IMG/VR virus record: IMGVR_UViG_3300043408_000073
Coordinates: 1 to 37,340 of that record
Length of the DNA: 37,340 nucleotides
Strand: one strand, 5' to 3'
Origin: a virus
Both the position numbers and the translations under genes were made by a program. Within the stretch, counting starts at the first letter, position 1, and every line of letters begins with the position of its first letter. The notes beneath the pieces are model-generated. The model did no database searches. It was given only the letters and a program-made list of their open reading frames with translations, and was not told the origin of the DNA. Below, piece by piece: positions 3,525 through 30,423 of this stretch.

Positions 3525-5495
3525 TCATTGAGAAACTAAACGACGTGCGATTGCAGTTCGCACTAGTGATTGACCAAGAGACAAGATGTCTTTGGCTTCA
3601 CCAATTCGTTTGATTATCTCAAAGTTATGTCTGCACCTTTCTAATCCTTCTTTTGAAACTTCTTCAGGATAGAGAAGTGCTTGGCAAGTAAGAACACCTG
3701 CTTCTTTCATTCTTCTTACAGACTCTTCTGCTTTCTCTCCGCCCCATGCACCGTCAGTAATCATGAAGAGAATACGAATTGGCTTGTCTGTATTAGCGAG
3801 AATGTTTTGTGCATTTAAGATTGCGACTTCAGGTTGTGTTGTTCCACTAGCACCTGCGTCTCTTATTGTTGTATCCGCTTTTTCATCTGCGGAATAAAGT
3901 AAGTGAGTTCCTGAATCAAACGTGTAAACAGTTGTGCTTGCTTGCACTTTGTCTAATGAACGCTTGATAGCCCACAAACTTTTGTATGCTTCTTTTGCAT
4001 TGTGACCTTGCATTGAAGAAGAACGGTCAAGAAGAATAACTGCTTCGATTGCAGTTACGTCATCGCGACCACTTTGCCACTTATCAAACAAAGTGCGAAC
4101 ACTTGCACCTTGCATGTAACGCTTGGCATTTAATCTTCCGCTTCGTTGCTCAGTTAACCATGAAGGGTCATAGTTTGCTTTGAGTCTTTCCAACTCACGA
4201 GCAAACGCACGTTGCACCGATACTAAATCTGCAGTTGCAGAAACAGAACGGTAATCGGCACGTGAAACACTTTCAGTATTTACAGTTCCCATAAGAGGTT
4301 TACCGACAACCTGCATTGATAACTGATTTAAGTTATCCATGAGTTCTTCAGTAACTGATTGAATAATCTCTTCCATGGTATCTGTAACTTCTTTAGAGTT
4401 TGCAGTTTCACTCTTACCACCAGCACCAGCATGACGGCTTAAGTTGTCTGCTTGATAAGGAGTTTCTGAATCTGAATCATCGTCATCAGAATCTTCATCG
4501 AAAGTAACGTCACCAAAGTCAGAAGAAGAATCAGAATCTTCTTTTGAATCAGAATCTGAATCATCGTCATCTGAATCACCAGCACCGTTACCGTTTGAAT
4601 CTGAATCAGAATCTGAATCATCTGCAGAATCATTTGCAGAAGAATTAGATTGTGAATCCGAATCATCAGAATCTGAATCATCAGAATCAGAATCAGCAGA
4701 AGAAGATTGTGAATCTTCTTTATCTAATTCTTTTTCTTGCTTCTCAGCATTCTTACGGTCACGCTCTTGTTCTCTCTTTGGTGCAGGTCGTGAATCAGAA
4801 GACTCATGACCATGGAATGGTCTGCTCTCATGACCGTTTGGGTCTGCAAGATTATCGCCCTGAATTAATTCTGCGAATCGTGCAATTAATTCTTTTGCAC
4901 GTTCTGTATCTTCAGGGAATAACAACAAACGGTATTCGTCAATTACTTCTGCAAGTGCAACTATGTTTTCTTGTTTTCTATAGTGCTTACGTGCAAGTTG
5001 ACGAATCTCAAGAGGCAAGTATCTGCGACCGCGTAACAACGGATACGCATTCTCGATTGCTTCAGGAGTATTGAGAATGAATTGTGCAACAGTTGCAGTC
5101 AACCAATTAACAGTTGAAGGGAATCTGCCAACCATAAGTGTTTCAATACGTTGGTCTTCTAACGCATTGAATGCTTTCCAGTAATTATTTTCAATTACCC
5201 ATAAGCAGAGTTCAGAACCGTTACGTGGTGTGTAACGAACGTGTGCTAACTCGTGAAAGTCCAAGCCTTGGATTGATAACAAAGTCTCTGTATCAAACTC
5301 GTCATTAATCTTTGCTTCGTTGAACCATACGTCGTTAGCACCCGACCAAGCAGGTGCACCGTCAGGTTGATTAACGATGTGCACTTTGATTGGACGAAGT
5401 GCAATTACAGAATTAGCACGCTGAAACACTTGTGCTAATCGAAGTAATCTATCGCGCTTTGCGTTTTCCTTTTCTTTATCTGTTAGTTGTTGCAT
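3525..5495 (-). CDS. CobT-like VWA-domain protein with HExxH motif (656 aa)
   Basis: The layout follows CobT-type proteins: an N-terminal domain, a very acidic Ser/Asp linker (about residues 230-350) and a C-terminal von Willebrand factor A domain. The VWA domain carries a MIDAS-like DxSxS (D490-R-S-S-S). The N-terminal domain contains H81-E-L-A-H85, a zinc-metallopeptidase-type motif. I start it at the ATG at 5495, because a GAGAGG site lies just upstream; the open frame to 5549 crosses the intergenic repeat. It lies directly downstream of a CobS/MoxR-like AAA+ ATPase. In bacteria such ATPase-VWA pairs insert metals or remodel protein complexes. The true substrate in a phage is unknown, and cobaltochelatase activity is not implied. 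Confidence 0.85.
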   Translation of the reverse strand: MQQLTDKEKENAKRDRLLRLAQVFQRANSVIALRPIKVHIVNQPDGAPAWSGANDVWFNEAKINDEFDTETLLSIQGLDFHELAHVRYTPRNGSELCLWVIENNYWKAFNALEDQRIETLMVGRFPSTVNWLTATVAQFILNTPEAIENAYPLLRGRRYLPLEIRQLARKHYRKQENIVALAEVIDEYRLLLFPEDTERAKELIARFAELIQGDNLADPNGHESRPFHGHESSDSRPAPKREQERDRKNAEKQEKELDKEDSQSSSADSDSDDSDSDDSDSQSNSSANDSADDSDSDSDSNGNGAGDSDDDDSDSDSKEDSDSSSDFGDVTFDEDSDDDDSDSETPYQADNLSRHAGAGGKSETANSKEVTDTMEEIIQSVTEELMDNLNQLSMQVVGKPLMGTVNTESVSRADYRSVSATADLVSVQRAFARELERLKANYDPSWLTEQRSGRLNAKRYMQGASVRTLFDKWQSGRDDVTAIEAVILLDRSSSMQGHNAKEAYKSLWAIKRSLDKVQASTTVYTFDSGTHLLYSADEKADTTIRDAGASGTTQPEVAILNAQNILANTDKPIRILFMITDGAWGGEKAEESVRRMKEAGVLTCQALLYPEEVSKEGLERCRHNFEIIKRIGEAKDILSLGQSLVRTAIARRLVSQ

Positions 5496-5510
5496 GACTG
5501 CCTCTCTGTA

Positions 5511-5525
5511 GATTTTTTGTTGCGG
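5511..5525 (-). repeat. Copy of recurring CCGCAACAAAAAATC element
   Basis: This is an exact 15-mer match to 1537-1551 and 3435-3449. It lies just upstream of the GAGAGG ribosome site of the CobT-like gene (start 5495), in the gap after the ATPase stop. Confidence 0.7.
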
Positions 5526-5558
5526 ATTTTTTTTAAAAGAATGTTGCAAGAGTGCAGA

Positions 5559-6965
5559 TTAATTATCTGCACCCTTGTCAACGATAGGAGTATTAACTGC
5601 AACTTCAAACTCTTCTGCGATGTTTGAAGAGTAAGCCTCCAACAACAACTTAACACTTGGTCGCTCTTCTTCATTGAAGTGATTTAAGAAGCAACGAACA
5701 GCGAAGTCATAGTTGTAGTTGTATACGTGATACTGAAAGCCTTTAAGAAGTCTGAGACTGATTGGTGTCTCATACTCTCCGCGAACAGAATCAGAACGCA
5801 TTTGAGTTGCAAGTTCTAGTAACGACTTTGACTTAATGATTTTCTTTTCAATAGTCGAGTCGTATTCGTAAACTAATTGAGTTGTGAATCTATCTGCAAA
5901 CGCCTCATTTAATTTACGAGTTCCGCGATAACCTGCGTTGTATGCACCGATGATAAGAAGTTCATCATGACCTTGAATAACTTCATTGTCGTTGCCACGC
6001 AAAGTTATTTGGCGCAACTTATCAAGTGCATTGTGCATGTCAGCAGAGCAACCTTCTTTAATGAATGAAAGTTCATCAAGAAGAACAACACCGCCATACT
6101 TGAATGCAAGTGATAACTCACCGTAAACAAACTTGAGTGTGCCGTCTGATTGCGGTTCTAGTTGTCCTTTGTAATCTGAAGGTTCACTTGCAAGGTTCAT
6201 ACCGATTGCATAAAAAGGTAAACCTTTTGAAGAAGCGAATGCTTTTGCGGAAGTTGTTTTACCAGTTCCAGCATGACCTTCTAACAATACGTTTTCTTTA
6301 TTACGCAAAGCACGTTCGAAGATGTCAAACTCTTTGATACCGTCGAATGTTCGTTGAATGTAGTTTGCAACTTCAGGGTCAGAAGGTGAAGGGACATACT
6401 TGTTTTTAATTTCAAGTGGAATGTCCTCACGAACAGCAACAGTTGCAACAGGTGCAACAGGTGCAGTTCTGATTGGTGCAGAAGCGATGTTAATTGGCTT
6501 GTAGTTTGTAGTTGCAGTTTTATCTGCACGACCGTCACTACGAAACTTAACAAGCGAATTAATGTCAGTTGCTAAACAAGTATCAATGTCTGCAACAACG
6601 TCACTTAGTAATTGACCAGTAAGTGTTTTATCGCGTAGTGCGAATTGTTTTGTTAACTTCTGAATCATGTTGAATGCAGAGTTATTAGTGAATACGTCGC
6701 GAATGTCAGTTGGTGTAAGTGGTGAAGATAGAACAGAACCAACAACTAATTCGTTACCAAACTTATTAGTAGTAAACGAATCGTAGTTTGAATCAGTCCA
6801 TGCGTTTGATACACCGCGACCGCCGTTAGTAACACGTGTCCATACTTTTACACCGCGTTCGATGTCTGCAACAACTAGTTGTTGTCGAAGATAACCAAGT
6901 TCTGCTGTTTGCGATGTAACTAATACTGCGTAACCAGTTGTGATTGTTGTTGTTGTTGTTGTCAT
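5559..6965 (-). CDS. CobS/MoxR-like AAA+ ATPase (468 aa)
   Basis: Residues 180-420 form an AAA+ module. Walker A is G230-H-A-G-T-G-K-T-T238, Walker B is VVLLDE (293-298), and a sensor-like 'GAYNAGYRG' and a 'NEAFADRF' segment (as in MoxR/CobS) follow. The first ~175 residues are a separate domain with no family I can name, beginning with a run of threonines. CobS-like ATPases are common in cyanophages and other aquatic phages. The gene directly downstream is its likely VWA partner, which suggests a two-component remodelling machine. A GAGAGG ribosome site precedes the ATG, 3 nt after the upstream gene's stop. Confidence 0.88.
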   Translation of the reverse strand: MTTTTTTITTGYAVLVTSQTAELGYLRQQLVVADIERGVKVWTRVTNGGRGVSNAWTDSNYDSFTTNKFGNELVVGSVLSSPLTPTDIRDVFTNNSAFNMIQKLTKQFALRDKTLTGQLLSDVVADIDTCLATDINSLVKFRSDGRADKTATTNYKPINIASAPIRTAPVAPVATVAVREDIPLEIKNKYVPSPSDPEVANYIQRTFDGIKEFDIFERALRNKENVLLEGHAGTGKTTSAKAFASSKGLPFYAIGMNLASEPSDYKGQLEPQSDGTLKFVYGELSLAFKYGGVVLLDELSFIKEGCSADMHNALDKLRQITLRGNDNEVIQGHDELLIIGAYNAGYRGTRKLNEAFADRFTTQLVYEYDSTIEKKIIKSKSLLELATQMRSDSVRGEYETPISLRLLKGFQYHVYNYNYDFAVRCFLNHFNEEERPSVKLLLEAYSSNIAEEFEVAVNTPIVDKGADN

Positions 6966-10121: not shown

Positions 10122-10271
10122 ATGATAACCCGAATCAAAGAAGTGGTAACACTTACCTTTTGCAAGCACAAAACAACAACTAGAGCATCTTGTCCTTATA
10201 CAATGAAGACATACGACATCTGTACTAAATGTAACTCTAAGAAGGTGGTCCATGAAATTTCGCAAAATTAA
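10122..10271 (+). CDS. Zinc-ribbon-like mini-protein (49 aa)
   Basis: ATG 10122 to TAA 10269-10271. Residues C14 and H16, another Cys and a 'CTKC' pair form a C-x-H...C...CxxC pattern typical of a single zinc ribbon. It overlaps the following gene by 20 nt and so appears to be the first gene of the halogenase cassette transcript. The function is unknown. Confidence 0.55.
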   Translation: MITRIKEVVTLTFCKHKTTTRASCPYTMKTYDICTKCNSKKVVHEISQN

Positions 10272-11028
10272 GTCTCCCGCAACAAAAACTATTGAGTTTC
10301 GTTTAAAGAAGGAACTAGACGCACGAGTCTATTTAACTCCGCAACCTGCTTATAACTTTGTACCTGAGTGGTTTAAAGATATGCCTAGGTATCAACACGG
10401 GGATAAAGAACTTCATCTTCAGCCATCAAACCTAACTGCTAAACATTGCGTTCCCTTAATGGATGCGTTTACAAGTGGCTATATGTTAGTAACTGCCTGT
10501 GACTTAGAGGTAAAGGCAGTTGAAAAAGTAATCCCTGCAGAAATGCTTAACGACCCAAATATCACTATTAATGCTCCAGCACCTATCATTCAACAGTCAT
10601 ACCCAAGTATGCCGATTATTCAACATCGAGAGTATGAGTTAGCAAAAGATATTCCTGCACCTGAAGGGTATTACCCAGGTGTGTGGACATGGAGCACACC
10701 AAATCAGATAATCACTCCTCCAGGTTATAGCGTTTGGTTTATGCACCCTGCAAATAGGTATGACTTACCGTTTATTACTAGTAGCGGAATTATCGATTGT
10801 GACAAAAATGGTGGCTATGGTGGGTATATTCCATTCTTCTTACGTAAGGGATTCGAAGGCATTATTCCTAAAGGAACCCCAATTATTCAGATTTTTCCTT
10901 TCAAAAGAGAAAATTGGGAAAAATACGACTCACCTGAGATAGAGAACTTAATGGGGCCAGTACAACAGACAACTGTTGGAGTTGGTTTCTACCGAAATAA
11001 CTCTTGGACAAAGAAGTCTTACAAGTGA
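10252..11028 (+). CDS. DUF6065-like protein, halogenase-flanking paralog 1 (258 aa)
   Basis: Clearly paralogous to the protein at 12625-13344. Shared blocks, in order: an N-terminal 'IEFR', 'P.WFKDMP.Y..G', 'C.PL.DA.T.GYM..T..D.EV', 'PGVW.W', 'ITPPGYS', a 'SSGIIDCD' segment, 'GFEGIIPKGTP' and 'P.KRENW', ending in a basic 'KKSYK'. I place it in the DUF6065-type family of phage and bacterial proteins from memory of these blocks. The C-terminal half resembles dUTPase motifs 3 and 4, suggesting a beta-clip-like fold. A ribosome site AAGGTGG precedes the ATG. Its stop overlaps the halogenase GTG. The biochemical function is unknown. Confidence 0.75.
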   Translation: MKFRKIKSPATKTIEFRLKKELDARVYLTPQPAYNFVPEWFKDMPRYQHGDKELHLQPSNLTAKHCVPLMDAFTSGYMLVTACDLEVKAVEKVIPAEMLNDPNITINAPAPIIQQSYPSMPIIQHREYELAKDIPAPEGYYPGVWTWSTPNQIITPPGYSVWFMHPANRYDLPFITSSGIIDCDKNGGYGGYIPFFLRKGFEGIIPKGTPIIQIFPFKRENWEKYDSPEIENLMGPVQQTTVGVGFYRNNSWTKKSYK

Positions 11029-12632
11029 AGACTGACTCTATCCTTATTGTAGGTGGTGGCACATCTGGTTGGATGACAGCCACCACTTTAATAAGAGCCT
11101 ACCCAAATAAAAAAATCACGGTTATTGAGTCTAAAGACGTTCCCACTATCGGTGTAGGAGAATCTACAGTCGGTGGTATTAGAAAATGGGCACAGTATGT
11201 TGGTTTACGTGATGAAACATTTTTTGCTAAAACTGATGCAACAATCAAGATGAGCATTAAGTTTAATGACTTTTACAAAAAAGACTCTGGTGGCTTTCAT
11301 TATCCTTTTGGTTTTCCACTACGCGATAGGGAACGCAATCCTTTTGCAGACTGGCATTTAAAGAAGTATTTCTACCCTAAAACACCCGTAGAGGATTTAG
11401 TCCGTTGCTTTTTTCCAGCATCTGCTTTGTTTGAGACTGGGAAGTATTCTGAAAACTTAAACAACGAGTTTGATAACTTTAACCCTAACGATGACATTGC
11501 GTACCATTTTGATGCTGCAAAGTTTGGTATTTATTTGCGTGATGAATACTGCGTTCCTAAAGGAGTTAAACACATTGTAGGAACTGTGGTTTCAACTATT
11601 CAAGATAAAGAAGGAATCACTGGTTTGGTAACAGACTCAGGAGAAACTCTTGTTGCTGACCTTTACATTGATTGCACTGGCTTTAAAAGCCTCTTACTTG
11701 GCGGTGCTTTTAAAGAACCGTTTGATTCTTATTCTGATTTACTTCCAAATAACCGTGCTTGGGCAGCACAACTACCTCATAAGAATCCTGATGCAGAGGT
11801 TCAAGGTTTTACTAATTGCACTGCAATTGAGAACGGGTGGTGTTGGAACACTCCTTTATTCTCTAGAATCGGTGCTGGCTATGTTTACTCAGATAAATTC
11901 GTTGACCCAGAGACTGCTAAGGAAGAGTTTAAGAAGTACTTAATGTCTGACAAAATGGTTGTTCCACGAACTCGTGAAGAGGTGGACGCTATAAAGTACA
12001 ACGACGTTCCTTTTAAAGTTGGCATGTATGAACGCACTTTTGTAAAGAATGTTGTTGCTATTGGATTATCTGCTGCCTTTATTGAGCCTTTAGAAAGTAA
12101 TGCTTTGTACAGTGTTCACGAGTTTTTGTTTTTGTTAGTAGACATTCTTTCTCGAGGAGAAATCTCTCAATGGGATAGAGATATGTACAACACAAGCACT
12201 AGAAAAACTTTTGATGGGTTTGCTAAGTTTGTTGCTTTACATTATGCATTATCTCACCGTGATGACACGCCATATTGGAAAGCCCTTATGGATAAAAACT
12301 ACGTTAACAAACAGGGAAACTCTCATTTCCCATCTGTAGACAAAGCGGATTATTTTTGGGATATGAACTGGCGGTATATGGATGCTTGGTATCACCCACT
12401 ATCCCAAGGTGGAAACACATACATTGCAACAGGGTTAAACTTAAATATGATTACGGAGTATCGTTTCTTAAATATTCAAAAAGAACAGAAACGAGACATG
12501 AAAAAAGAGATTGACGAACATATTGTTCTTTGGGAAGAAAGAAAGAACAAATGGGCTAAGAATGCTTTAGAGGCCCCTACACTTCGTCAGTATTTACAAG
12601 ACAAGTTCTATACAAAGGAGCAAGATGTTTAA
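11025..12632 (+). CDS. Flavin-dependent (tryptophan-type) halogenase (535 aa)
   Basis: The N-terminus gives the FAD-binding GGGTSGWM motif (G10-G15) and 'GVGES' (43-47). Lys75 in 'ATIK' sits where the catalytic lysine of PrnA/RebH lies, W272-x-W274-x-x-P277 corresponds to the halogenase WxWxIP motif, and E354 in 'IEPLES' matches the second catalytic residue. The family uses FADH2, O2 and halide to make a hypohalous acid that is passed to the lysine. I start at GTG 11025, which overlaps the upstream stop (GTGA); the ATG at 11004 would add seven residues ahead of the FAD strand. Phage relatives exist, including cyanophage VirX1, a reported iodinase. The flavin reductase must come from the host, and the substrate is unknown. 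Confidence 0.92.
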   Translation: MKTDSILIVGGGTSGWMTATTLIRAYPNKKITVIESKDVPTIGVGESTVGGIRKWAQYVGLRDETFFAKTDATIKMSIKFNDFYKKDSGGFHYPFGFPLRDRERNPFADWHLKKYFYPKTPVEDLVRCFFPASALFETGKYSENLNNEFDNFNPNDDIAYHFDAAKFGIYLRDEYCVPKGVKHIVGTVVSTIQDKEGITGLVTDSGETLVADLYIDCTGFKSLLLGGAFKEPFDSYSDLLPNNRAWAAQLPHKNPDAEVQGFTNCTAIENGWCWNTPLFSRIGAGYVYSDKFVDPETAKEEFKKYLMSDKMVVPRTREEVDAIKYNDVPFKVGMYERTFVKNVVAIGLSAAFIEPLESNALYSVHEFLFLLVDILSRGEISQWDRDMYNTSTRKTFDGFAKFVALHYALSHRDDTPYWKALMDKNYVNKQGNSHFPSVDKADYFWDMNWRYMDAWYHPLSQGGNTYIATGLNLNMITEYRFLNIQKEQKRDMKKEIDEHIVLWEERKNKWAKNALEAPTLRQYLQDKFYTKEQDV

Positions 12633-13344
12633 AAAACCTTCAAAAACAAGAATTGTTGAGTTTCGTCGTAGACCAAGACTACCTCAAGAGATTTTTCCTT
12701 TTCCAACTCCTTCCATCCGAGTCATCCCTTCTTGGTACAAAGACATGCCTTTGTATACACGTGGTGGAACAAAACCTCAACTAGAACCTGGAAATTCAAG
12801 CCCTAAAGCATGTATGCCTTTGTTAGATGCATTAACTGCTGGTTATATGTTTGTTACTCCTCATGACATAGAAGTGCGAATTTATGATAATCCTAATGAA
12901 CCTAAAATTGAATATGGTTACAAGGGACCCTCTATTATCAAAACTAGAGGAGTAGATTTAGCAGGAATGATGCCAAGTCCAAATGGATTTACACCAGGGA
13001 TATTTATTTGGCATACTGCTTTTGAAGCAATTACTCCTCCTGGATACAGCATGTTGTACACACACCCTTTAAACCAAGATAATCTTCCTTTTAGAACTTC
13101 TTCAGGAATTATGGATACAGATGTTTATGGACATTCTGGTTCTATCCCATTTTCTCTAAAAATTGGTTTTGAAGGAATCATTCCTAAAGGAACTCCGTTT
13201 TTACAGATGATTCCGATAAAAAGAGAATCTTGGAAAGCGGTTAACTCTCCGATTGAAGAAGATGAGGGAGTAACAGCAATTCCACGTACAACCATACGAG
13301 GGTATTATCGTGATGTGTGGTGGAAGAAAAAAGATTACAAGTGA
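12625..13344 (+). CDS. DUF6065-like protein, halogenase-flanking paralog 2 (239 aa)
   Basis: It has the same block order as the protein at 10252-11028, with 'P.WYKDMP.Y', 'CMPLLDALTAGYM', 'ITPPGYSMLYTHP', 'SSGIMDTD', 'GFEGIIPKGTP' and 'IKRESW', and a basic 'KKKDYK' end. It starts at an ATG with AAAGGAG upstream, overlapping the halogenase end by 8 nt. The paralogs flank the halogenase on both sides, which suggests a working unit such as a substrate carrier, a partner or two subunits, though this is inference. The C-terminal half resembles dUTPase motifs 3-4 but lacks other recognisable dUTPase residues. Confidence 0.75.
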   Translation: MFKKPSKTRIVEFRRRPRLPQEIFPFPTPSIRVIPSWYKDMPLYTRGGTKPQLEPGNSSPKACMPLLDALTAGYMFVTPHDIEVRIYDNPNEPKIEYGYKGPSIIKTRGVDLAGMMPSPNGFTPGIFIWHTAFEAITPPGYSMLYTHPLNQDNLPFRTSSGIMDTDVYGHSGSIPFSLKIGFEGIIPKGTPFLQMIPIKRESWKAVNSPIEEDEGVTAIPRTTIRGYYRDVWWKKKDYK

Positions 13345-14307: not shown

Positions 14308-14331
14308 ACCCAGATATTAAGGATACTTCCT

Positions 14332-14874
14332 GTGACAACAATAATTGGTTTGCAGCAAAAAGATAAATGCGTTATCTATGCAGATGCTCAAACCACAGAT
14401 GGTCAGGGTCGAATGTTTACTCACCCACAGATGTCAAAGATTTCTCGACGGGGTGACTTTTTAATTGCTGGAGCAGGAGAAGCCTTTCCTTGCGATGTAG
14501 CACAACATATTTGGAATCCACCTTCTCCCACAGAAAAAGACATTAAAGACCTCTATCACTTTATGATTGCAAAGGTAGTTCCGTCTTTGAGAACGTGTTT
14601 AATAGACAATGGCTACAAGTTTGATGAGGAGGGAGACGGTGAGTATCGTTTCCAATTTTTAATTGCTGTTGGCGGAACTTTATTTGCTATTGAAGACGAC
14701 TTATCTGTAGGAATTCGTAGCGATGGTCTTTACGGAGTAGGCAATGGTGCAAAATATGCAATTGGGGCACTTTCAGCAGGTGCTGCTCCTTTAAAGGCTA
14801 TGAAGATTGCAGAAACCCAAGATGCCTGGACTTCTGGACCTTTTCAGAAGAAAGAGCAGTACAAATACATTTAA
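14332..14874 (+). CDS. HslV/20S-proteasome-beta-like Ntn hydrolase (180 aa)
   Basis: A GTG start yields MTTIIGL, so removal of the initiator Met would expose Thr as the N-terminal nucleophile. D18 ('YADAQTT') sits at the HslV D17 position, and K36 ('MSKIS') is close to the catalytic lysine. Later segments 'FLIAGAGEAF' and 'GVGNGAKYAIGAL' match the beta-subunit core (HslV: IGSGG). The length is near that of HslV (about 175). No HslU-type ATPase is next to it, although a AAA+ ATPase is encoded in the left operon. A self-compartmentalising protease or a repurposed fold are both possible. It has AAGGA 8 nt before the GTG. Confidence 0.72.
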   Translation: MTTIIGLQQKDKCVIYADAQTTDGQGRMFTHPQMSKISRRGDFLIAGAGEAFPCDVAQHIWNPPSPTEKDIKDLYHFMIAKVVPSLRTCLIDNGYKFDEEGDGEYRFQFLIAVGGTLFAIEDDLSVGIRSDGLYGVGNGAKYAIGALSAGAAPLKAMKIAETQDAWTSGPFQKKEQYKYI

Positions 14875-15240: not shown

Positions 15241-15456
15241 GTGAAAAGTTTAAAAGTATTGACGGCACTTCTTTTAACAACAGTATTGTCTTTGTCTTTA
15301 ACCAGTTGTGGCTATAGTGGTTTCTTTAGATACCCTTGTCAAGACCCAAAAAACTGGGAACTAGCAGAATGCAAACCACCTATTTGCTCTGCAACACAGA
15401 CATGTCCTGTAGACTTAGTAAAGACACCTCAACCAGAAGGAACACCAAATGAGTAA
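15241..15456 (+). CDS. Small lipoprotein (71 aa)
   Basis: GTG start with AGGA upstream. An N-terminal signal (residues 4-20) is followed by the lipobox L20-T-S-C23. The mature part has five more cysteines ('YPCQDPKNW', 'CKPPIC', 'TC'). Similar Cys-rich small lipoproteins occur in aquatic phages next to lysis genes. A spanin-like or membrane-decorating role is conceivable, but a Gram-positive host would not need a spanin. Its end overlaps the next gene by 8 nt. Confidence 0.7.
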   Translation: MKSLKVLTALLLTTVLSLSLTSCGYSGFFRYPCQDPKNWELAECKPPICSATQTCPVDLVKTPQPEGTPNE

Positions 15457-15859
15457 AGAACGACTAACACCACAAGAACTAGACGCACGTTTAAAGTTTA
15501 TCCTTGGAATTACTTTAGGTTCCATTTTATTTTTTACAGCAATAGGAATTCTTTACGGACTTCTCTTTGTTACTCAACCAATTGGAGCACAGTCAGAAAA
15601 CGACAAAATGTTCTTTAACGTATTGGGTAGCGTAGCAACATTTATTACTGGAACTCTTGCTGGTCTTTTGATTGGTCAATCTGGTGCTAAAGATATTATG
15701 TCAGCACAGTTGGCAAACAAAGAGATGGATGCCAAAAATACACAAGCAGATAAAAAACTAGAAGCAGAAATTGATGCTACAGCAGCACGTCTTGCAGCAA
15801 AGCCAGACGGACAGATGCCAGCAGAACAGCCAGTTGACACAGATTGGGATAAAGACTAA
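15449..15859 (+). CDS. Two-TM membrane protein, holin candidate (136 aa)
   Basis: Hydrophobic segments at about 16-43 and 60-77 are separated by a short polar loop. The C-terminal ~55 residues are charged and helical. It is immediately upstream of, and overlapping, the CHAP endolysin (stop/start TAATG at 15857-15861), the usual holin location. The size and topology fit a holin, although the long soluble C-terminus could also suit a different membrane anchor. Confidence 0.6.
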   Translation: MSKERLTPQELDARLKFILGITLGSILFFTAIGILYGLLFVTQPIGAQSENDKMFFNVLGSVATFITGTLAGLLIGQSGAKDIMSAQLANKEMDAKNTQADKKLEAEIDATAARLAAKPDGQMPAEQPVDTDWDKD

Positions 15860-16407
15860 TGGCAGACCAAGGTACAGCAGCACGTTTAATTGAAGTTGCT
15901 ACAGCAGAACTAGGAACTATCGAAGGTCCTAAAGATAACGAAACAAAGTACGGCGCATTCACAAAAGCAAACTTCCAACCATGGTGCGGAAGTTTCGTAA
16001 TGTGGTGTGCGTCAGAGGCTGGCGTAAAAGTTCCTAACACTGTTTACACTCCAGGTGGTGCACAAGCCTTTAAGAAGGCTGGTTCATGGATTGATGGAGA
16101 TGTAGCAGACCCAGAACCAGGAGATATTGCCTATTTTGATTTCCCATCAGATGGTGTCGATAGAATTTCTCACGTTGGAATTGTTATCAAAGATAACGAA
16201 GATGGAACTGTTTGGTGTATCGAAGGAAACACTAGCCCAGATAAAAAGGGAAGCCAAAGAAATGGCGGACAGGTTTCCAAAAAACTTCGTGCATTTAAGA
16301 AGAACAAGGCTGGAGAACAAATCTCAATTGTTGGATTTGGTCGCCCTAAGTTCAAGGCAGCAGGAGCAGCAGCACAATCACCCAAGTGCCCTACTTGCGG
16401 TAAGTAA
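15859..16407 (+). CDS. CHAP-domain endolysin (182 aa)
   Basis: CHAP cysteine-histidine peptidase/amidase core: nucleophile C43 in 'PWCGSFVMWC', H105 in 'ISHVGIV', and a third polar pair E122/N124 in 'CIEGNT'. 'EPGDIAYFDF' is a typical CHAP strand. It cleaves peptidoglycan for lysis. The gene follows the holin candidate directly. There is no separate wall-binding domain. Instead the last residues are 'KCPTCGK', an unusual CxxC tail. A tail-associated wall hydrolase is the alternative, but the gene context favours lysis. Confidence 0.85.
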   Translation: MADQGTAARLIEVATAELGTIEGPKDNETKYGAFTKANFQPWCGSFVMWCASEAGVKVPNTVYTPGGAQAFKKAGSWIDGDVADPEPGDIAYFDFPSDGVDRISHVGIVIKDNEDGTVWCIEGNTSPDKKGSQRNGGQVSKKLRAFKKNKAGEQISIVGFGRPKFKAAGAAAQSPKCPTCGK

Positions 16408-16408
16408 A

Positions 16409-16693
16409 ATGACACTACCAAGCAAAAAGAAAAAAACCTACGGTCCTTACAAAGGGTCAAAGGCAAACGGTGGAAGAAGCATTGTTGTGCATTATGACCC
16501 AAAGTCTCAGAGCACTACTTCTCAAAATGCTGCCCGCCACAAAAAAGAAAAATCTCTTGGTAGAAAACTTTCTAAAAACGAACACGTTGACCATACAGAT
16601 AACAACCACAAGAATGAATCTGCCTCTAACCTTAAGGTAATGTCTGCTAAGAAAAATATCGGAAAAGGCAACCAAAACAGAAAGAAGAAGTGA
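16409..16693 (+). CDS. HNH endonuclease (94 aa)
   Basis: ATG at 16409 (MTLPSKKKKTYG...), directly after the endolysin stop; the longer open frame to 16127 is the shadow of the endolysin. Residues 48-80 form an HNH module: 'SLGRKLSKNEHVDHTDNN' with H59-V-D-H62, then 'SASNLKVMS'. This is the usual layout of phage homing or nicking HNH enzymes. It is basic throughout. A free-standing homing endonuclease or a packaging-associated nuclease are both possible. Confidence 0.75.
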   Translation: MTLPSKKKKTYGPYKGSKANGGRSIVVHYDPKSQSTTSQNAARHKKEKSLGRKLSKNEHVDHTDNNHKNESASNLKVMSAKKNIGKGNQNRKKK

Positions 16694-17711: not shown

Positions 17712-20105
17712 TTGCTGAAAAAAGCATTTGCAGTAGTTTTTACTACCGTAGTATTTGTTTTTATCTACAGTATTTTAGGTGTAGAAACTGCTAGAGCAGA
17801 AGAAACCACTACTGTACAAGTTAGTCCAAGTCCTTCTGACTCCACATCAACTTCGAGTTCACCCTCTCCAAGTCCGACTCCAGAGCCAACACCCGAGCCG
17901 ACTTCCACTTCAACTCCGACTCCAACTGAACCAACTGCTCAGTCTGGTAGCACCGATTCTGCATCCACGACACAAACCACCCAGCAGCAAAACTCAACAG
18001 CAAACCCAATGCCCACCACTCCTGTTGCTCCATCTATAACCTCCGTTGAAACTAAAATTGAGGCAGCAACAGTAACAACTGCTGCAGCACAGGAAAGTCT
18101 AACCGCTACAACAACCTCTTTAGCACAACCTGTTGCAACTGATACTAGTGTCGTGGCTGCCGTGGCTACAGCACAAACAGCCATAACAGAAGCCCAAACA
18201 GCCATAAATGCAGCAACTGAGGCAAAAGAAGTAGCAGTTACAGCAACAGCCACAGTAGAGTCTCAAACCGCAGTTGTGGCTACAGCCACTACAGCCGTTG
18301 AGTCAGCAACAGCAGTTGTTGCTACAGCAACTACAAACTTAAGTAACGCTCAGGCTGATTTAAGTACCGCTCAAACAACCGCAACAACAGCCCAGGCTGC
18401 TGCCGATGCTTCAGCCGTTACAACTACAACTAATGGAATTCAGGTAACAACATACGCATCCCCTGGTGGACAGCAGCCACCGCTTCCAGCAGAAAATGCA
18501 ACACCACTTTCAACTACAACAGTCCCTTATATTGCCCACCAGTTTGGAAGCGGACAGGTGTTTAACTCTGGCAGAGTAGACAATGTAATTGTGAAATTTG
18601 AAGGAAAGATTACCGTTCCAGAAGAAGCAGTAAGCGTAAAATATGCAATCCATTCAGATGATGGCGCAAAGATGTATGTTGACGGACAACTTGCAATCAA
18701 TGAATGGATTGATAAGGGCGGAGGGTGGAGCCAGTATTCTCCAACATATAACACAACTACAGATAAACAACAGGATTTTGTTATTTGGTATTATGAAAAT
18801 GGTGGAGCCTCATCAGTCATACTTGGCTGGTTAATCACAAGAGCAAACGGAACTGGGTACTTTACTACTCCAGTCAATGAGGCATTTGCAACTACAACAG
18901 TAACAAAAGACCCGACATTAGTTGCTGCTGCCACTACCGCAGTTGCTGCTATACCTGTAGCACAAGCAGTTGTTACAGATAAGACAGAAGTGAAGCAAGT
19001 AGCAGAGACAGCACTTGCAACTGCTCAGACCACATTAACAACAGAAACTCAAACATTAAGCACCCTCCAAACAACTCAAGAAGTAGCAGTTGCTACTGCT
19101 AATACATTAGCGGATGTCGCAGTTGCTAAAGCAGAGGTCGCTACTTCCACAGTCGCTTCCGCCACTGCCGTAATTGCTTCAGTTCAGCAGTCCCAAGTCG
19201 TTCCGCCCACTCCCGTTCCCACTCCTGAACCAACACCAGAGCCACAACCACTCCCAACACCACAGCCAGAGCCAGCCCCAACACCAATCCCAACACCAAT
19301 CCCAGAACCATTACCTACTCCTTCACCTGAACCAGAGCCAGAACCAACTCCAGAACCAGAACCGCAACCAGAGCCACCAGTAGAGCCTGCACCAGAGCCA
19401 GAACCAGAGCCGTCCCCAGAGCCAGAACCAACACCACAGCCAGAACCAGAACCAGCCCCAGAACCGCAACCAGAGCCAGAACCAACTCCTGAACCTTCTC
19501 CAGAACCTGAACCATCCCCAGAGCCTACACCAGAACCTGAACCAACACCTGAAGAACCTCCTGCACCTGCTCCAGAACCTGAAGCACCTGCAACTGTTGA
19601 AGAGGCTGTTACTGAAGCACTTGCTGATGGAAAGTTAACGGAGGCTGAAAAAGAAATTGTTGCTGAAGCATTGATTGCTTCTGTTGCACCAGGTGAAGCG
19701 TTAAGTTCGGAAGCAATTAAAGAAGCAGGGTTAACTTACGAAGATTTACCACCAACAACTCCAGTTGACGTAAGAACTGACGAAAATGGAAATGCTGTCA
19801 TAATTACTGCAGAAGTTGCTGCTGCACTTACTGTGCTAGAAAATCCCGCAGAACTAATCGGTGCAATATTTGAAGACCCAGGTCAAGTTCTACTTGCGTT
19901 GGGAAGTATTGGTGCTGACATGTCACCAGAAGAACGAGAAGAAGCGACAGAAATGGTTGTTGCTACAGTCGTTGCTGCTGGTGCAGCCATGAATGCAATC
20001 GGTGCTGCTGGTGGAACCACAGGTGGTTCTACGGGCGGAGGAAGTTCTGGTGGCGGAGGTCCATCGGGAGATAGTAAAGGCGTTAGGAGAAGACCAAAGC
20101 CGTGA
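17712..20105 (+). CDS. Large secreted PA14-domain, Pro-rich protein (797 aa)
   Basis: TTG start after GAGGGAG. The signal peptide is about residues 1-29 (LGVETARA, then EE). A Ser/Thr/Pro linker (30-115) and an Ala/Thr-rich helical region (115-235) follow. A PA14-type carbohydrate-binding domain lies at about 240-380, with a '[13 protein letters not shown]' core. Another Ala-rich region (385-495) precedes a long PEPxPEP spacer (495-625). The end holds an acidic helical domain (625-760) and a Gly-rich basic tail. Secreted multi-domain proteins are unusual in phages. It could decorate the host surface or be a virion adhesin whose signal drives export. No sortase motif is seen. Terminators flank its transcription start. 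Confidence 0.7.
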
Positions 20106-24174: not shown

Positions 24175-25776
24175 ATGGCTATTGATTTTAATGATGATAA
24201 GTTTGAGGAAATTAATCCCGAACTTTACGCAAGTGATGATGATGAAGAGGCTCCCCTACCGCCTGAAGAAAATGACCTTGATGAACTCTCTATTCAGTTT
24301 GTTGAAAAATTAATAAATAAAATTTTAGAGTTCCAAGAAGTTCTTGTTGGTTACCCTTTACACCCCTATCAAATGCCTTTGGCACGTCGTGTAATTGAGT
24401 CTGTTTTAATTAATGACGGAGAAGAAATTACAGCACTTGCTGCACGTCAGTCAGGAAAATCAGAAACAGTTGCAAACACTGTTGCAACTTTGATGATTCT
24501 TCTACCGCGTCTTGCAAAGTTATACCCAGATTTATTGGGTAAATTTAAAGACGGTCTTTGGGTTGGATTGTTTGCACCAACAGAAGGACAGGCAGAAACA
24601 CTGTTTGGACGTACTGTTACTCGGCTTACTTCTGAAAGAGCATTAGAAATTTTGGGTGACCCTGAAATTGATGATTCTGCTGCCCGTATTGGTGGAGTAA
24701 CCAGAATGATAAAACTAAAGAAATCTGGTTCAACAATTACGATGATGACAGCAAACCCACGTGCAAAGATTGAGTCTAAGTCGTTTCATCTTATTGTTAT
24801 TGATGAGTGTCAAGAAGCGGATGACTTTGTTGTTTCTAAGTCAATTTCCCCGATGCTTGCTTACTATGCAGGAACCATGGTGAAGACTGGAACTCCTACA
24901 ACGAGCAAAAATAACTTCTATCGTGCTATCCAGTTAAATAAGCGTAGACAAACTACACGTGGGGCAAAACAAAACCATTTCCAATGGGATTGGAAAGACG
25001 TTGCAAAGTTTAACGATAATTACTTAAAGTTTATAAAAAAAGAGACTTTGCGTATCGGAGAAGATTCTGATGAGTTTCAGATGTCCTATAACTGTAAATG
25101 GCTTCTTGAAAGAGGTATGTTCGTAACTTCAGGAATTATGGATGAACTTGGAGATACTTCTCAAGAGTTAGTAAAGGTTTGGCATAAGACTCCTGTTGTT
25201 GTAGGAATTGACCCTGCTCGTAAAATGGACTCAACTGTGGTGACTGTTGTTTGGGTTGATTGGGATAGACCTGACGAGTTTGGTTATTTTGAACACAGAG
25301 TTTTAAATTGGTTAGAACTTCAAGGAGATGACTGGGAAGAGCAATACTTTCAAATTGTTAACTTTTTAAGCAACTACGACGTTTTGGCTGTAGGAGTTGA
25401 TGCTAATGGTGTTGGAGATGCTGTAGCACAACGTCTTCGCCTTCTTTTACCAAGAGCAGAAGTAGCGTCTATAACTTCTAGTGCCACAGAACAATCACAA
25501 CGATGGAAACACCTTCAAGCCTTGATTCAAAGAAAAATGTTGGGATTTCCAGCCCATGCAAAAACACGAAGGTTACGTACTTGGAAACGGTTCTATCAAC
25601 AAATGGTAGACGCTGAAGTCCAGTACAAAGGACCTAACTTTCTTGTTGCAGCCCCTGATGAGTCGTATGCCCATGACGATTACGTAGATAGCCTCGCAAT
25701 TGCCTGCTCCCTAACTAAGGATTTAGTCATGCCAGAGGTAGTTCTGACAAGTAGCCCATTTTTTAATAAAAATTAA
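24175..25776 (+). CDS. Terminase large subunit (533 aa)
   Basis: The ATPase part has Walker A 'RQSGKS' (R91-S96, K95) and Walker B 'LIVIDE' (D210, E211). The nuclease part has an RNase H-like 'VGIDPAR' (D346), 'GVDANG' (D409) and 'HDDYVDSLA' (D501/D502/D505). Together these form the usual motor plus headful/cos-cutting nuclease of phage DNA packaging. The length is typical. It is followed by a structural gene and the portal in the standard order. The small terminase was not identified. Confidence 0.95.
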   Translation: MAIDFNDDKFEEINPELYASDDDEEAPLPPEENDLDELSIQFVEKLINKILEFQEVLVGYPLHPYQMPLARRVIESVLINDGEEITALAARQSGKSETVANTVATLMILLPRLAKLYPDLLGKFKDGLWVGLFAPTEGQAETLFGRTVTRLTSERALEILGDPEIDDSAARIGGVTRMIKLKKSGSTITMMTANPRAKIESKSFHLIVIDECQEADDFVVSKSISPMLAYYAGTMVKTGTPTTSKNNFYRAIQLNKRRQTTRGAKQNHFQWDWKDVAKFNDNYLKFIKKETLRIGEDSDEFQMSYNCKWLLERGMFVTSGIMDELGDTSQELVKVWHKTPVVVGIDPARKMDSTVVTVVWVDWDRPDEFGYFEHRVLNWLELQGDDWEEQYFQIVNFLSNYDVLAVGVDANGVGDAVAQRLRLLLPRAEVASITSSATEQSQRWKHLQALIQRKMLGFPAHAKTRRLRTWKRFYQQMVDAEVQYKGPNFLVAAPDESYAHDDYVDSLAIACSLTKDLVMPEVVLTSSPFFNKN

Positions 25777-25867
25777 AAAGGAGTTAACCATTACTTATGG
25801 GGAAAAATCAGAGAAAATCGTCTGTGGAATAGGCCATTCCGATTTACTAACCTTATAAGGAGTCATA

Positions 25868-26263
25868 ATGACACTAGCACCAAACCCACAGTTCCCTGAA
25901 AAGGGCACTAATGTTTATGAGATGAAGGCAGCAGGAAACGCAACACGTCGTGGTCCGCTTCGCTTTGAAGAAGGTATTGCAACTGATACTGATGTTCCAA
26001 ACGATTTTGAACTAGGAATGCAACAGGGCTTTGCTGCTGCTGCAGGTCGTCCAAATCGTAACGCTCCAGTTCACACAAAGACTGCTGCAGAAACTATGCA
26101 GGCACGTGCCCACGTTGGTTCTGCTGCATGGACAGAAGCACCAACATTCCTTGCTGAGTTCTCACACGGTTCCTTTACAGACTACGCAGAACAGAAGACT
26201 GAGGTTGTTGCACGTTCAGGTGGACGTACACAGCGCACTTCTCCAACCGTAGTAAACGACTAA
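25868..26263 (+). CDS. Hypothetical head-region protein (131 aa)
   Basis: Between terminase and portal, with AAGGAG before the ATG. The protein is Ala/Thr/Gly-rich with 'DFELGMQQGFAAAAGRPNRN' and 'RAHVGSAAWTEAPTFLAEF'. Both blocks look familiar from uncultured aquatic phages, but no domain name is available. A minor head or decoration protein would fit the location. Confidence 0.65.
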   Translation: MTLAPNPQFPEKGTNVYEMKAAGNATRRGPLRFEEGIATDTDVPNDFELGMQQGFAAAAGRPNRNAPVHTKTAAETMQARAHVGSAAWTEAPTFLAEFSHGSFTDYAEQKTEVVARSGGRTQRTSPTVVND

Positions 26264-26282
26264 AAGAGTTTTTTGTCTTTGA

Positions 26283-26305
26283 CCCCCTAGGATTGTCCTA
26301 GGGGG
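26283..26305 (+). terminator. Perfect hairpin CCCCCTAGGA-ttg-TCCTAGGGGG
   Basis: A 10-bp stem with a 3-nt loop, extended by CTTTG/CAAAG across 2 nt on each side (26277-26312). It is preceded by TTTTTTGTCTTT rather than followed by T's. Probably an attenuator or processing site. It shares TTGACCCCCTA with 14298-14308. Confidence 0.55.
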
Positions 26306-26329
26306 AACAAAGTTGTAAAGGAAATAATT

Positions 26330-26611
26330 GTGGCTGAAAAACCTGCTAATCCAAAACTTTGGGAAATGGTAATTGCTCAAGCAAAAGCCAAGTACTCAAC
26401 CTACCCAAATCCTGCAGCAAGTCATTGGGTTCGAGAGAGATACGTCCAAAGTGGTGGTAGATTTACAGACTCAAATAGTCCTATTGAGCAAAGAAAAAAA
26501 CTTAATGAAAAGCAGTTTGCAAAATTACAGAAAGAACGCGGAAAGAAAAAAGACGTAAAAGACGTAAAACATAAAAAGGATAAGGGCGGAAAAAAGAGTG
26601 ACACAAAGTAG
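26330..26611 (+). CDS. DUF5872-like basic protein (93 aa), GTG start
   Basis: GTG start with AAAGGA upstream. The N-terminal 45 residues ('PANPKLWEMVIAQAKAKY', 'YPNPAASHWVRERYVQSGG') match the DUF5872-like pattern from memory. The remainder is very Lys-rich, suggesting DNA or RNA contact or an internal virion location. It is immediately upstream of the portal. Confidence 0.65.
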   Translation: MAEKPANPKLWEMVIAQAKAKYSTYPNPAASHWVRERYVQSGGRFTDSNSPIEQRKKLNEKQFAKLQKERGKKKDVKDVKHKKDKGGKKSDTK

Positions 26612-26614
26612 GGT
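26609..26614 (+). promoter_or_regulatory. -10-like TAGGGT ending 6 nt before the portal ATG
   Basis: TAGGGT starts at the stop codon of the upstream gene and ends 6 nt before ATG 26621. It fits the leaderless pattern, but a -35 is not evident. Confidence 0.35.
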
Positions 26615-26620
26615 CATACG

Positions 26621-28360
26621 ATGAGTTTTGTTGACTTTTCTCCTCCATCATATAGAGCAGCCTCCTCTGATTTAACTATTTCAATTTCTCCACTTGGTTT
26701 AGTGGAACTTGCAGATGAAGAGTTTGAAGTACACGGTCCGCGTTTAAACCGTTACTCACTTAACTGGGCAATGTACCTAGGACATCACTGGGGTTATCGT
26801 CGTGAACAAGGCGAAATGCAGATTGCTGTAAATTACTATAGAGCATTTACAGATTATCTTTCTAGATTTACCTTCGGTAAAGGAATTCATTTCCGTAGTC
26901 CTAAAGCAACTGAAGCAATTGTTCCAGACCGTCTGCAAAGAGTTTGGGAAGTAGACAACGATAAAACTCGCGTCCTTTTAGAAATGGCACAGCAAGGCGG
27001 AATTTCTGGAGATTGTTTTGTCAAAGTAGCGTATGAAGAACCTTGGACCGATGCAATTGGTCGTGTACATCCTGGCAAGGTACGAATTCTTCCGCTTAAC
27101 TCTTCTTTTTCATTCCCAGAGTTTCACCCACATGACCGTAATCGTCTTCTAAGATTTAAACAAAAGTATCGTTTTTGGGGAACTTCTTTAGAGGGTACTA
27201 GACAAGTCTTTACTTATACTGAGATTCTTACAGATGACCTAATTGAAGAATACATTAATGACGAATTAATTGACTCTCGTCCAAACCCTCTAGGAACAAT
27301 CCCAGTAGTACATATTGCAAATATTCCAGTTGCTGGTTCTCCGTGGGGACTACCTGACTGCCATGACATTATTAGTATAAATCGTGCCTACAATGAAATT
27401 TCAACAGATGTTGCAGACATTATTAACTACCATGCTGCTCCTGTAACAGTAATTGTTGGTGCAAAGGCTTCTAACCTTGAAAAAGGTCCTAAGAAAGTTT
27501 GGGGAGGTCTTCCAAAAGATTCTCAAGTATTTAACCTTGAAGGTGGTGGGTCAGGAATTGAAGGCGCACTTAAGTACCTAGAGTTATTAAAGCGTTCTAT
27601 GCATGAGTTAATGAACGTTCCAGAAACCGCTCTCGGACAAGTTCAGCCAATTTCAAATACTTCTGGTGTTGCTCTGTCTATTCAGTATCAACCATTGATG
27701 AACCGTTGGACTCAAAAAACATCGCAGTACGGCGTGGGCATTGAGAAAATTAACGAACTAATTCTTTTAAACTTAGCGGTTAAAGAACCAGAAACAATGG
27801 TTTACAACCCAGAAGAAGATGGTCCAATTAAAGAAGGTCAGATGGTTAAACTGGACCCAAATGATTCTATTACCTATCAAAACTATGTTCAGTTCCCACA
27901 ACCTCTTCCACTAGATAAGTTAATTATCCTTAATGAGGTACAGACCAAACTTGGTATGGGGCTTGAGTCTAAAGAAGGTGCTCTTCGTACTTTGGGAGAA
28001 GAGTTCCCAGAAGAGAAGTTGCAAGAAATTAGGGCTGAACTTAAAGCAGAAGCACTTTCAGACGGTTCTCTAACCCTACTTAAAGTTCAAATTCAAAAAG
28101 AAATTCAAGATATGACTGGCATGATGCCAGGGCCTGGGGGAGAGGGAGCAGTTCCACTGCAACCTACTCAATTAGCCGATGGTGAAATCATGGGGGACAA
28201 CATGTCTGGTGTGCCTTCCCCAGAGGCTGCTGCTGACCCTGCTCAACAGGAACTAGCCATGACAGAGGCTGGTATGGAAATGGATATTCGGAACAAACTG
28301 CTAACCGAAGCCTATGGAACCAAAATTCCACAGAGACGAGCAGTAAATAGAGACCAATAA
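26621..28360 (+). CDS. Portal protein (579 aa)
   Basis: The size and overall pattern fit the SPP1 gp6/T4-unlike portal class of aquatic phages: an N-terminal 'YLGHHWGYRRE' start, 'NYYRAFTDYLSRFTFGKG', a long central helical and beta core with 'IPVVHIANIPVAGSPWG', and a helix 'AYNEISTDVADIINYHAA'. The C-terminal ~80 residues are acidic, Met/Gln/Pro-rich and probably disordered. It forms the dodecameric DNA gate at the head vertex. It lies between terminase and scaffold, as expected. Confidence 0.88.
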   Translation: MSFVDFSPPSYRAASSDLTISISPLGLVELADEEFEVHGPRLNRYSLNWAMYLGHHWGYRREQGEMQIAVNYYRAFTDYLSRFTFGKGIHFRSPKATEAIVPDRLQRVWEVDNDKTRVLLEMAQQGGISGDCFVKVAYEEPWTDAIGRVHPGKVRILPLNSSFSFPEFHPHDRNRLLRFKQKYRFWGTSLEGTRQVFTYTEILTDDLIEEYINDELIDSRPNPLGTIPVVHIANIPVAGSPWGLPDCHDIISINRAYNEISTDVADIINYHAAPVTVIVGAKASNLEKGPKKVWGGLPKDSQVFNLEGGGSGIEGALKYLELLKRSMHELMNVPETALGQVQPISNTSGVALSIQYQPLMNRWTQKTSQYGVGIEKINELILLNLAVKEPETMVYNPEEDGPIKEGQMVKLDPNDSITYQNYVQFPQPLPLDKLIILNEVQTKLGMGLESKEGALRTLGEEFPEEKLQEIRAELKAEALSDGSLTLLKVQIQKEIQDMTGMMPGPGGEGAVPLQPTQLADGEIMGDNMSGVPSPEAAADPAQQELAMTEAGMEMDIRNKLLTEAYGTKIPQRRAVNRDQ

Positions 28361-28490
28361 ATTTCAGATGAAAAATCTGATTTAGCCTGACAAACACTAC
28401 GAAATGTTGTGCAATTATCAGGTAAGAACGTGGGACACGCAGGTAAAACTGCATTCGGACAATAACCAAGGAAACGGATACTGAACTACT

Positions 28491-29249
28491 ATGGAAAACA
28501 CTGAAGTACAAGAAGTACAGATTGAGTCAGCAATGCAAGAGACTGCTACTCCTATCGTGGAAAGTAAGGCTTCTAAGGAAGCAACTGACTTTGGCTTTTC
28601 AGCCGAAGACTTATCTCGTGCTCGTGCACAAGAAAAAGAAAAGTTGTATCCGCAAATGGAAAAACTCAAAGAAGAACTTGCTGCCCTGAAGAAGGAGCGC
28701 GATGAGAAAGCCGAGCAGGAAGAACTTGCTCGTCAAAGGCAGGCTGAACTTGAGGAAAAGAAACTTGAAGAAGACATGGATGTTCGTCAACTTCTAGAAA
28801 AAAAGGAAAAGGAATTTCAGTCTCAGTTAGAGGCAGAGCGTATCGAAAGAGAACGTGCTTTTGCTCTACTTGAACAAGAAAAACATTTTCAAGAAATAAT
28901 GCAGTACCGTCAACAAAGAATTGAGCAGGAACGTGAAAACGTTATTCCAGAACTCATTGATTTGATTGAAGGTAACAACCGTGATGAAATCGAGCAGAGC
29001 ATCGCGTCATTGAAAGAAAAATCTGCTCGTATTCTCGACTCTGCACAGCAGGCTTTACAGTCTACTCGCAGGGAAATGGCAGGGACACGCATTACGTCTC
29101 CTGCATCAGGACCTCTCGATAATGATTCGGAACAACGTTCGTATTCTCCCGAAAGTATTCGGGAAATGTCATTGGCGGATTACGCGAAGCAACGAGCCAA
29201 ACTACTTGGCGAAGCAGCAGGTAATCGTGGTAAGGGACTGTTCGGGTAA
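28491..29249 (+). CDS. Scaffolding protein (252 aa)
   Basis: A central Glu/Lys/Arg-rich coiled coil (about residues 45-190) lies between a short acidic N-terminus and a Ser/Pro-rich linker. The C-terminal block is a basic helix ('MSLADYAKQRAKLLGEAA'), typical of scaffolds that bind the capsid protein through a C-terminal helix-turn-helix. It sits directly upstream of the major capsid gene. There is no protease motif. Confidence 0.82.
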   Translation: MENTEVQEVQIESAMQETATPIVESKASKEATDFGFSAEDLSRARAQEKEKLYPQMEKLKEELAALKKERDEKAEQEELARQRQAELEEKKLEEDMDVRQLLEKKEKEFQSQLEAERIERERAFALLEQEKHFQEIMQYRQQRIEQERENVIPELIDLIEGNNRDEIEQSIASLKEKSARILDSAQQALQSTRREMAGTRITSPASGPLDNDSEQRSYSPESIREMSLADYAKQRAKLLGEAAGNRGKGLFG

Positions 29250-29298
29250 GCCCAAACAAACTAAATTATCCATCTAACAGGAAAGGACTGATACCAAA

Positions 29299-30423
29299 AT
29301 GGCATCAGCGATTACAGGCACTAGTGAACTAGCAGGTGCTCCTACCGCATATAGCGGTTCGAACTCCAGCCTTTCAACAGCAATTCAGACCATCTGGTCT
29401 AAAGAAATTCTATTCCAAGCAATGCCAATTCTGCGTTTCGAGCAGTTTGCAGTTAAGAAGACTGAACTAGGTGTAGCACCTGGTCTTCGTGTGAACTTCC
29501 TTCGTTACAAGAACTTTGCTGTAGACCCAGCACCACTTACAGAAGGTGTACGTCTAACAACAAACGCTCTTACAGCAGAACAAATTGCAATCACAGTTGC
29601 AGAACACGGCTACGCAGTAGCAGTTTCTGAACTACTACTTAACGCATCATTCGATGACGTTATGGCATCATCTTCACGCCTTCTAGGTCGCCACATGGCA
29701 CAGTACCTAGATGTACAGGCACGTAACACACTAGGTGCTGCTACTTCTGCAGTATTCGGTTACGACCGTACAGGCGTATCAGCAGGGTCACAGTCATTCT
29801 ACGATGAAGGCTCAAAGGCAACATCTATCGCAACAATTACAGCAAACCACAAGTTGACTACTGGTGCTGTAAAGGATGCTGCACTTACCCTTGCTTCAAA
29901 GAACATTCCTCGCCTCGGTGAGACATACGTAATGTTCATCAATCCAAAGCAGTCACGTGATATTCGTTCGAACCCAGAGTTCATCGAAGTTACCAAGTAC
30001 GCTGCCCCAGGAAACTTCATGCTCGGTGAAATCGGTCGTCTATACGACGTAGTATTCATCGAAACAACTCAGGTTAAGTCATACGCATCAGGAGCAGTTA
30101 TTAACGAGACTGCAAATGTTGGTGCACCTGCTGACCAGACTGAAGTTCCAGTAAAGGCAAACACCAACCCAGGTTCAGGTGGAAACCCAACAGGTTCAAC
30201 TTCACCAAACCCTGCTGGTGGTTCTGGCGGAACTGCAGCAACAACTGTCTACGAATCAATCATGATTGGTGACAACGCATTTGGTCACGCAATTTCCCTT
30301 CCAGTTGAACTTCGCGATGGTGGCGTTCTTGACTTCGGTCGTGAGCACGCCCTTGCTTGGTATGCAATTTGGGGTCTTGGCGTTATCACAGACCAAGCAA
30401 TTTGCAAGGTCTTCACTGCTTAA
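29299..30423 (+). CDS. Major capsid protein, N4-gp56-like HK97 fold (374 aa)
   Basis: The N-terminal half matches the N4 gp56 family: 'TIWSKEILFQAMPILRFEQF', 'LRVNFLRYKNF', 'LTEGVRLT', then 'LLLNASFDDVMASSSRLLGR'. The C-terminal half ends 'LRDGGVLDFGREHALAWYAI', also typical of the family. A Gly/Ser/Pro/Thr-rich stretch of about 35 residues (roughly 280-315) looks like an inserted surface loop. AAGGA precedes the ATG. The codon set is enriched in optimal-looking codons compared with neighbours, as expected of the most abundant virion protein. Confidence 0.92.
   Translation: MASAITGTSELAGAPTAYSGSNSSLSTAIQTIWSKEILFQAMPILRFEQFAVKKTELGVAPGLRVNFLRYKNFAVDPAPLTEGVRLTTNALTAEQIAITVAEHGYAVAVSELLLNASFDDVMASSSRLLGRHMAQYLDVQARNTLGAATSAVFGYDRTGVSAGSQSFYDEGSKATSIATITANHKLTTGAVKDAALTLASKNIPRLGETYVMFINPKQSRDIRSNPEFIEVTKYAAPGNFMLGEIGRLYDVVFIETTQVKSYASGAVINETANVGAPADQTEVPVKANTNPGSGGNPTGSTSPNPAGGSGGTAATTVYESIMIGDNAFGHAISLPVELRDGGVLDFGREHALAWYAIWGLGVITDQAICKVFTA

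Follow-up and report, generated by a model that had tools for sequence, protein, structure and literature searches.

We analysed an IMG/VR viral contig of 37,340 bases (the window, which may be a genome fragment) and found that it almost certainly carries, judged from its sequence and from structure modelling, a functional gene for a threonine Ntn hydrolase. The best explanation, which we regard as moderately probable as a whole, is a phage-made, proteasome-like threonine protease that would form an unfoldase-independent ring with limited substrates and act late in infection. By analogy with HslV and with the beta-proteobacterial proteasome homologue (BPH), methionine aminopeptidase would remove the initiator Met and expose Thr1, identical subunits would build a double ring that encloses the active sites, and substrates would be screened by an acidic pore loop, not by an HslU-type ATPase. 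With less assurance, we propose that the protease is made late in infection, alongside the products of the lysis genes, and that it might benefit the phage by degrading a restricted range of host or phage proteins that are small or unfolded.

The open reading frame covers positions 14332–14874 of the plus strand exactly (180 codons; Table 1), opens with GTG and reads Met-Thr-Thr. Its relatives start at the same codon position, with GTG or ATG; together with the AAGGA stretch 8 bases upstream, this indicates that the start is well placed and that Thr directly follows the initiator Met, in line with the N-terminal Thr of the mature protein predicted in an earlier note on this DNA. There is no propeptide, the start codon immediately preceding Thr1, whereas the leader of Streptomyces PrcB is long. 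The mature length of 179 residues (175 in E. coli HslV) also agreed with the HslV-like size given in that note. The antisense strand of the gene is not open and contains many stops, and the G+C content of the gene is 41.4%, compared to 42.0% for the window. Against five relatives with 75–88% nucleotide identity, dN/dS was 0.05–0.07; this is a real gene under strong selection.

Table 1. Features in and around the protease gene. Residues are numbered with Thr = 1, and conservation refers to distinct viral relatives.
Feature	Positions	Strand	Evidence
AAGGA ribosome-binding-site-like stretch, 8 bases 5′ of GTG	14319..14323	+	Sequence
Proteasome-like Ntn hydrolase gene (PHROG_1040), 180 aa, GTG start	14332..14874	+	ORF, profile match, predicted structure
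Thr1 codon, predicted nucleophile exposed on Met removal	14335..14337	+	77/77 conserved
Asp17 codon, triad	14383..14385	+	77/77 conserved
Lys35 codon (= proteasome Lys33, BPH Lys37), triad	14437..14439	+	77/77 conserved
Gly48 codon (= proteasome Gly47 position by alignment), oxyanion hole	14476..14478	+	77/77 conserved
Acidic loop after helix 2 (FDEEGDGEY), pore-loop position	14620..14646	+	Acidic > basic in 76/76 relatives
Asn137 codon (= proteasome Ser129 position)	14743..14745	+	Ser 64, Asn 12, Thr 1 of 77
Asp163 to Thr166 codons (= proteasome Asp166 and Ser169 positions)	14821..14832	+	Alignment of 77
Small gene directly downstream, same distance in 8 related loci, Streptomyces phage homologues	14893..15228	+	
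Lipoprotein-like gene and two-helix membrane (putative holin-like) gene, neighbouring lysis region	15241..15859	+	Sequence; holin reading by inference
CHAP endolysin	15859..16407	+	Homologue near protease gene in 43/89 related loci

Conservation was counted in an alignment of 77 distinct viral relatives. The suggestion that Asp and Lys occupy the positions expected of an Ntn hydrolase was borne out: Asp17 and Lys35 align with the triad residues of BPH and HslV, and the complete Thr/Asp/Lys triad is invariant among the relatives. At the Ser129 position, Asn is found in the window protein and its close kin (12 of 77, including the window), and the Asp166 position is variable (34 sequences have Asp, 33 have Thr and 10 have Ser), so that catalytic activity is not certain; Thr166, at the Ser169 position, is kept in 76 of the 77. 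In each of the 76 distinct sequences counted, acidic residues outnumber basic ones in the loop that follows helix 2. As this loop lines the pore in ring proteases and is acidic here as in BPH, it supports an unfoldase-independent ring like that of BPH, which the phage protein probably forms.

The PHROG_1040 profile (‘peptidase HslV family’) matched residues 2–173 (E 6.9e-23), and the top viral match was an uncultured phage protein named HslV. Matches to the Pfam Proteasome, NCBI HslV and archaeal beta models were weak and far under their cut-offs, the score with the HslV models being 14.2 bits against curated equivalog cut-offs of 137 and 157.75. The AlphaFold2 monomer (alignment of 38 relatives as input; pLDDT 94, pTM 0.89) displayed the Ntn-hydrolase alpha-beta-beta-alpha sandwich, the absence of which the earlier note had named as evidence against its assignment, and contained helices at residues 51–60 and 74–92, the latter long. 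Foldseek ranked BPH at the top (E 8.5e-11), followed by HslV and 20S beta subunits. VIA-align gave Z 18.3 for BPH 5ovt (rmsd 2.6, 164 residues) and Z 17.6 for an HslV (rmsd 3.1, 163 residues), scores that are tied within the stated error. From sequence alone, a profile of these 38 relatives searched against the PDB matched BPH (E 9e-8) more strongly than HslV (E about 3e-6 to 1e-5).

BPH (5ovs, 5ovt, 5ovu), the top structure and profile match, shares with the phage protease the Thr1/Asp17/Lys triad, the acidic loop at the pore position and the lack of an unfoldase. It differs in being a bacterial chromosome gene, in its identity of about 20–25% and in Ser129, which is replaced by Asn in the phage protein; in a maximum-likelihood tree with partial BPH sequences only and weak deep support, BPH and the window clade lay on separate branches. 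BPH is marked by its acidic loop, has no known unfoldase and was found with epoxomicin bound at Thr1 (PMC5777263). Its authors suggest a narrow substrate range (PMC5777263), and the activity of the phage protease may therefore be hard to show. HslV (E. coli and others) is alike in fold, triad and length, but with about 20% identity, scores far under the curated cut-offs and no HslU among the window genes scanned, we rejected the phage protease as HslV proper. Of the original description as an HslV/proteasome-beta-like hydrolase, membership of the proteasome-like family thus stands; ‘HslV’ is a fold-level name only, and BPH fits at least as well.

Proteasome homologues in phages have already been published as AAH and PPH (Fuchs, Alva and Lupas 2021; PMC8665760), and a Salmonella jumbo phage has been reported to carry one without HslU (PMC7823757). 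Phage members of PHROG_1040, for example those of phAPEC8, SPN3US and DSL-LC01, have Thr1, Asp17 and Lys in common with the window protein, but identity to the members in GenBank records is only about 25–40%, and the window protein sits in its own clade with environmental contigs. AAH is likewise of group I type, about 180 aa long and known in phages, and the window protein is about 30% identical to its members from Rhizobium and Streptomyces; the AAH-like bacterial set differs in carrying TSSFRM and GCG motifs and in forming a separate 100/100 clade. PPH (proteasome homologue of phages and their hosts; PMC8665760) is also phage-borne and of group I, but is about 140 aa long and lacks helix 2 (PMC8665760), and was rejected as the identity of a 180-aa protein with a helix at 74–92. 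We also discarded LuckySocke gene 42, a ‘peptidase’ that matches a crotonase-like and not an Ntn family, as a homologue, and dropped a Gloeocapsa plasmid match located in a protein of >1,100 residues.

A scan of viral contigs yielded at least 527 related stretches. In the maximum-likelihood tree, the window protein and 15 viral relatives grouped together against the AAH-like set, in which Rhizobium relatives, Azospirillum, Streptomyces, Frankia and Paenibacillus formed the other group, whose long branch received 100/100 support. We infer that this bacterial group is AAH from its taxonomic spread, which fits the AAH of PMC8665760; the window protein falls outside it. The proteins of Arthrobacter and Microbacterium phages and of DSL-LC01, a metagenome-assembled Dishui Lake phage (PMC10611076), lay outside both groups with weak support, and the poorly supported deep branches were left out of inference. 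No relative emerged when 84,980 species of bacteria and archaea were scanned with the window clade's own motifs, a scan with the plasmid-borne group as the query led to the bacterial AAH-like set, and a profile search of 396 actinobacterial genomes returned nothing but the centre genome's AAH-type gene and a single short fragment. Since no bacterial genome with a member was found, the window clade appears, in the collections that we searched, to be specific to phages.

Proteasome homologues are widespread among phages and have been both catalogued (PHROG_1040) and discussed (PMC8665760) before, and the window protein is a further member. Its clade is widespread and apparently unstudied; our literature search found no published work on it, and no phage proteasome homologue with known function. 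The clade is large, its conservation is strong and activity is predicted, which makes it well suited to asking why phages encode proteasome-like proteases of their own. The 2021 survey found no Actinobacteria-specific phage with AAH (PMC8665760). Our data touch this gap in that other homologues of group I type do occur in Actinobacteria phages, namely the window lineage and the deposited Arthrobacter, Microbacterium and Dishui Lake phages.

The genes of the window include terminase, portal, major capsid and tail-fibre genes; no tRNA genes were found in it. Its capsid and terminase are 61% and 53% identical, respectively, to those of the Streptomyces phages LuckySocke, Alone3 and BRock, the terminase-portal-capsid order (24175–30423) is common to the window and LuckySocke-type Streptomyces phages, and a DUF7455 gene follows the endolysin. 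An actinobacterial host, as the earlier note had assumed, is therefore likely, and the low G+C would point to a low-G+C freshwater actinobacterial group rather than Streptomyces. The common gene order and identities further tie these environmental phages to a cultured lineage.

The protease gene adjoins lysis genes, not capsid genes. Where an endolysin homologue is nearby in related loci, it most often lies just upstream of the protease, and DUF7455 homologues are near the protease gene in 33 of 89 loci; the protease–endolysin linkage may reflect only genome layout. Neither a link to capsid genes nor a consistently linked ATPase was seen in the related loci. The absence of an adjacent ATPase partner held up as well, as no HslU/Clp-type ATPase was found among the larger window genes scanned, and the sole AAA+ found among the genes scanned, about 7 kb away (5559–6965, minus strand), is MoxR/CobS-like (AAA_5). 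This ATPase lies beside a VWA-domain protein (3525–6965 for both, minus strand). Only tentatively do we extend our reading to the clade as a separate branch of the proteasome family, confined to phages, that would occur in many freshwater actinobacterial phages, be tied to the lysis region and act as an unfoldase-independent ring in late infection.

Other explanations have to be weighed against the unfoldase-independent ring. A protease or ligase specialised for one target or a few, which might mature a virion protein or cut a host protein and perhaps form no closed ring, seems rather unlikely to us. Connectase, a proteasome homologue turned specific ligase (PMC8665760), offers a precedent, and the activity of BPH seems narrow (PMC5777263); yet in connectase the first pair of helices is missing and an insertion covers the active site (PMC8665760), whereas helices 1 and 2 are present here, and the related loci connect the gene with no capsid gene. 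It is unlikely that the protein serves as the peptidase component of an HslVU-like machine and borrows a host AAA+ unfoldase (ClpX, ClpC or a proteasomal ATPase) during infection. HslV needs an unfoldase, the host's could serve the phage, and both the fold and the near-HslV length would suit such a role, but the low HslV score, the acidic loop resembling that of unfoldase-free BPH and the lack of an ATPase consistently travelling with the gene argue against it.

The same alignment that shows Asn for Ser129 in 12 of 77 sequences, as might be expected of a homologue that had lost catalysis and played a structural or regulatory role instead, shows the triad to be invariant, and with a dN/dS of about 0.05 we consider this role very unlikely. 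Even with a likely actinobacterial host, and with PrcB in many Actinobacteria (shown for one Streptomyces genome, the centre genome of the 396-genome search), it appears highly improbable that the phage protease mixes with, replaces or blocks the PrcB proteasome. The protein has no propeptide and no close or clear sequence match to PrcB, for which reasons we rejected an identity as actinobacterial PrcB, and the 396-genome profile search did not return PrcB; the earlier idea of mixing with or replacing the host PrcB was not supported.

Elsewhere in the window, a tryptophan-halogenase-like gene (11004–12632) has members of PHROG_7084, an uncharacterised family, on each side (10252–11028 and 12625–13344), arranged around it as if working together. 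Positions 17712–20105 encode a secreted-looking protein of 797 residues without a PHROG match, in which Thr/Ala and Pro/Glu repeats surround what appears by eye to be a PA14-like stretch. Finally, the frame of an HNH endonuclease (16127–16693) overlaps the end of the endolysin gene, and its true start is probably near 16400.
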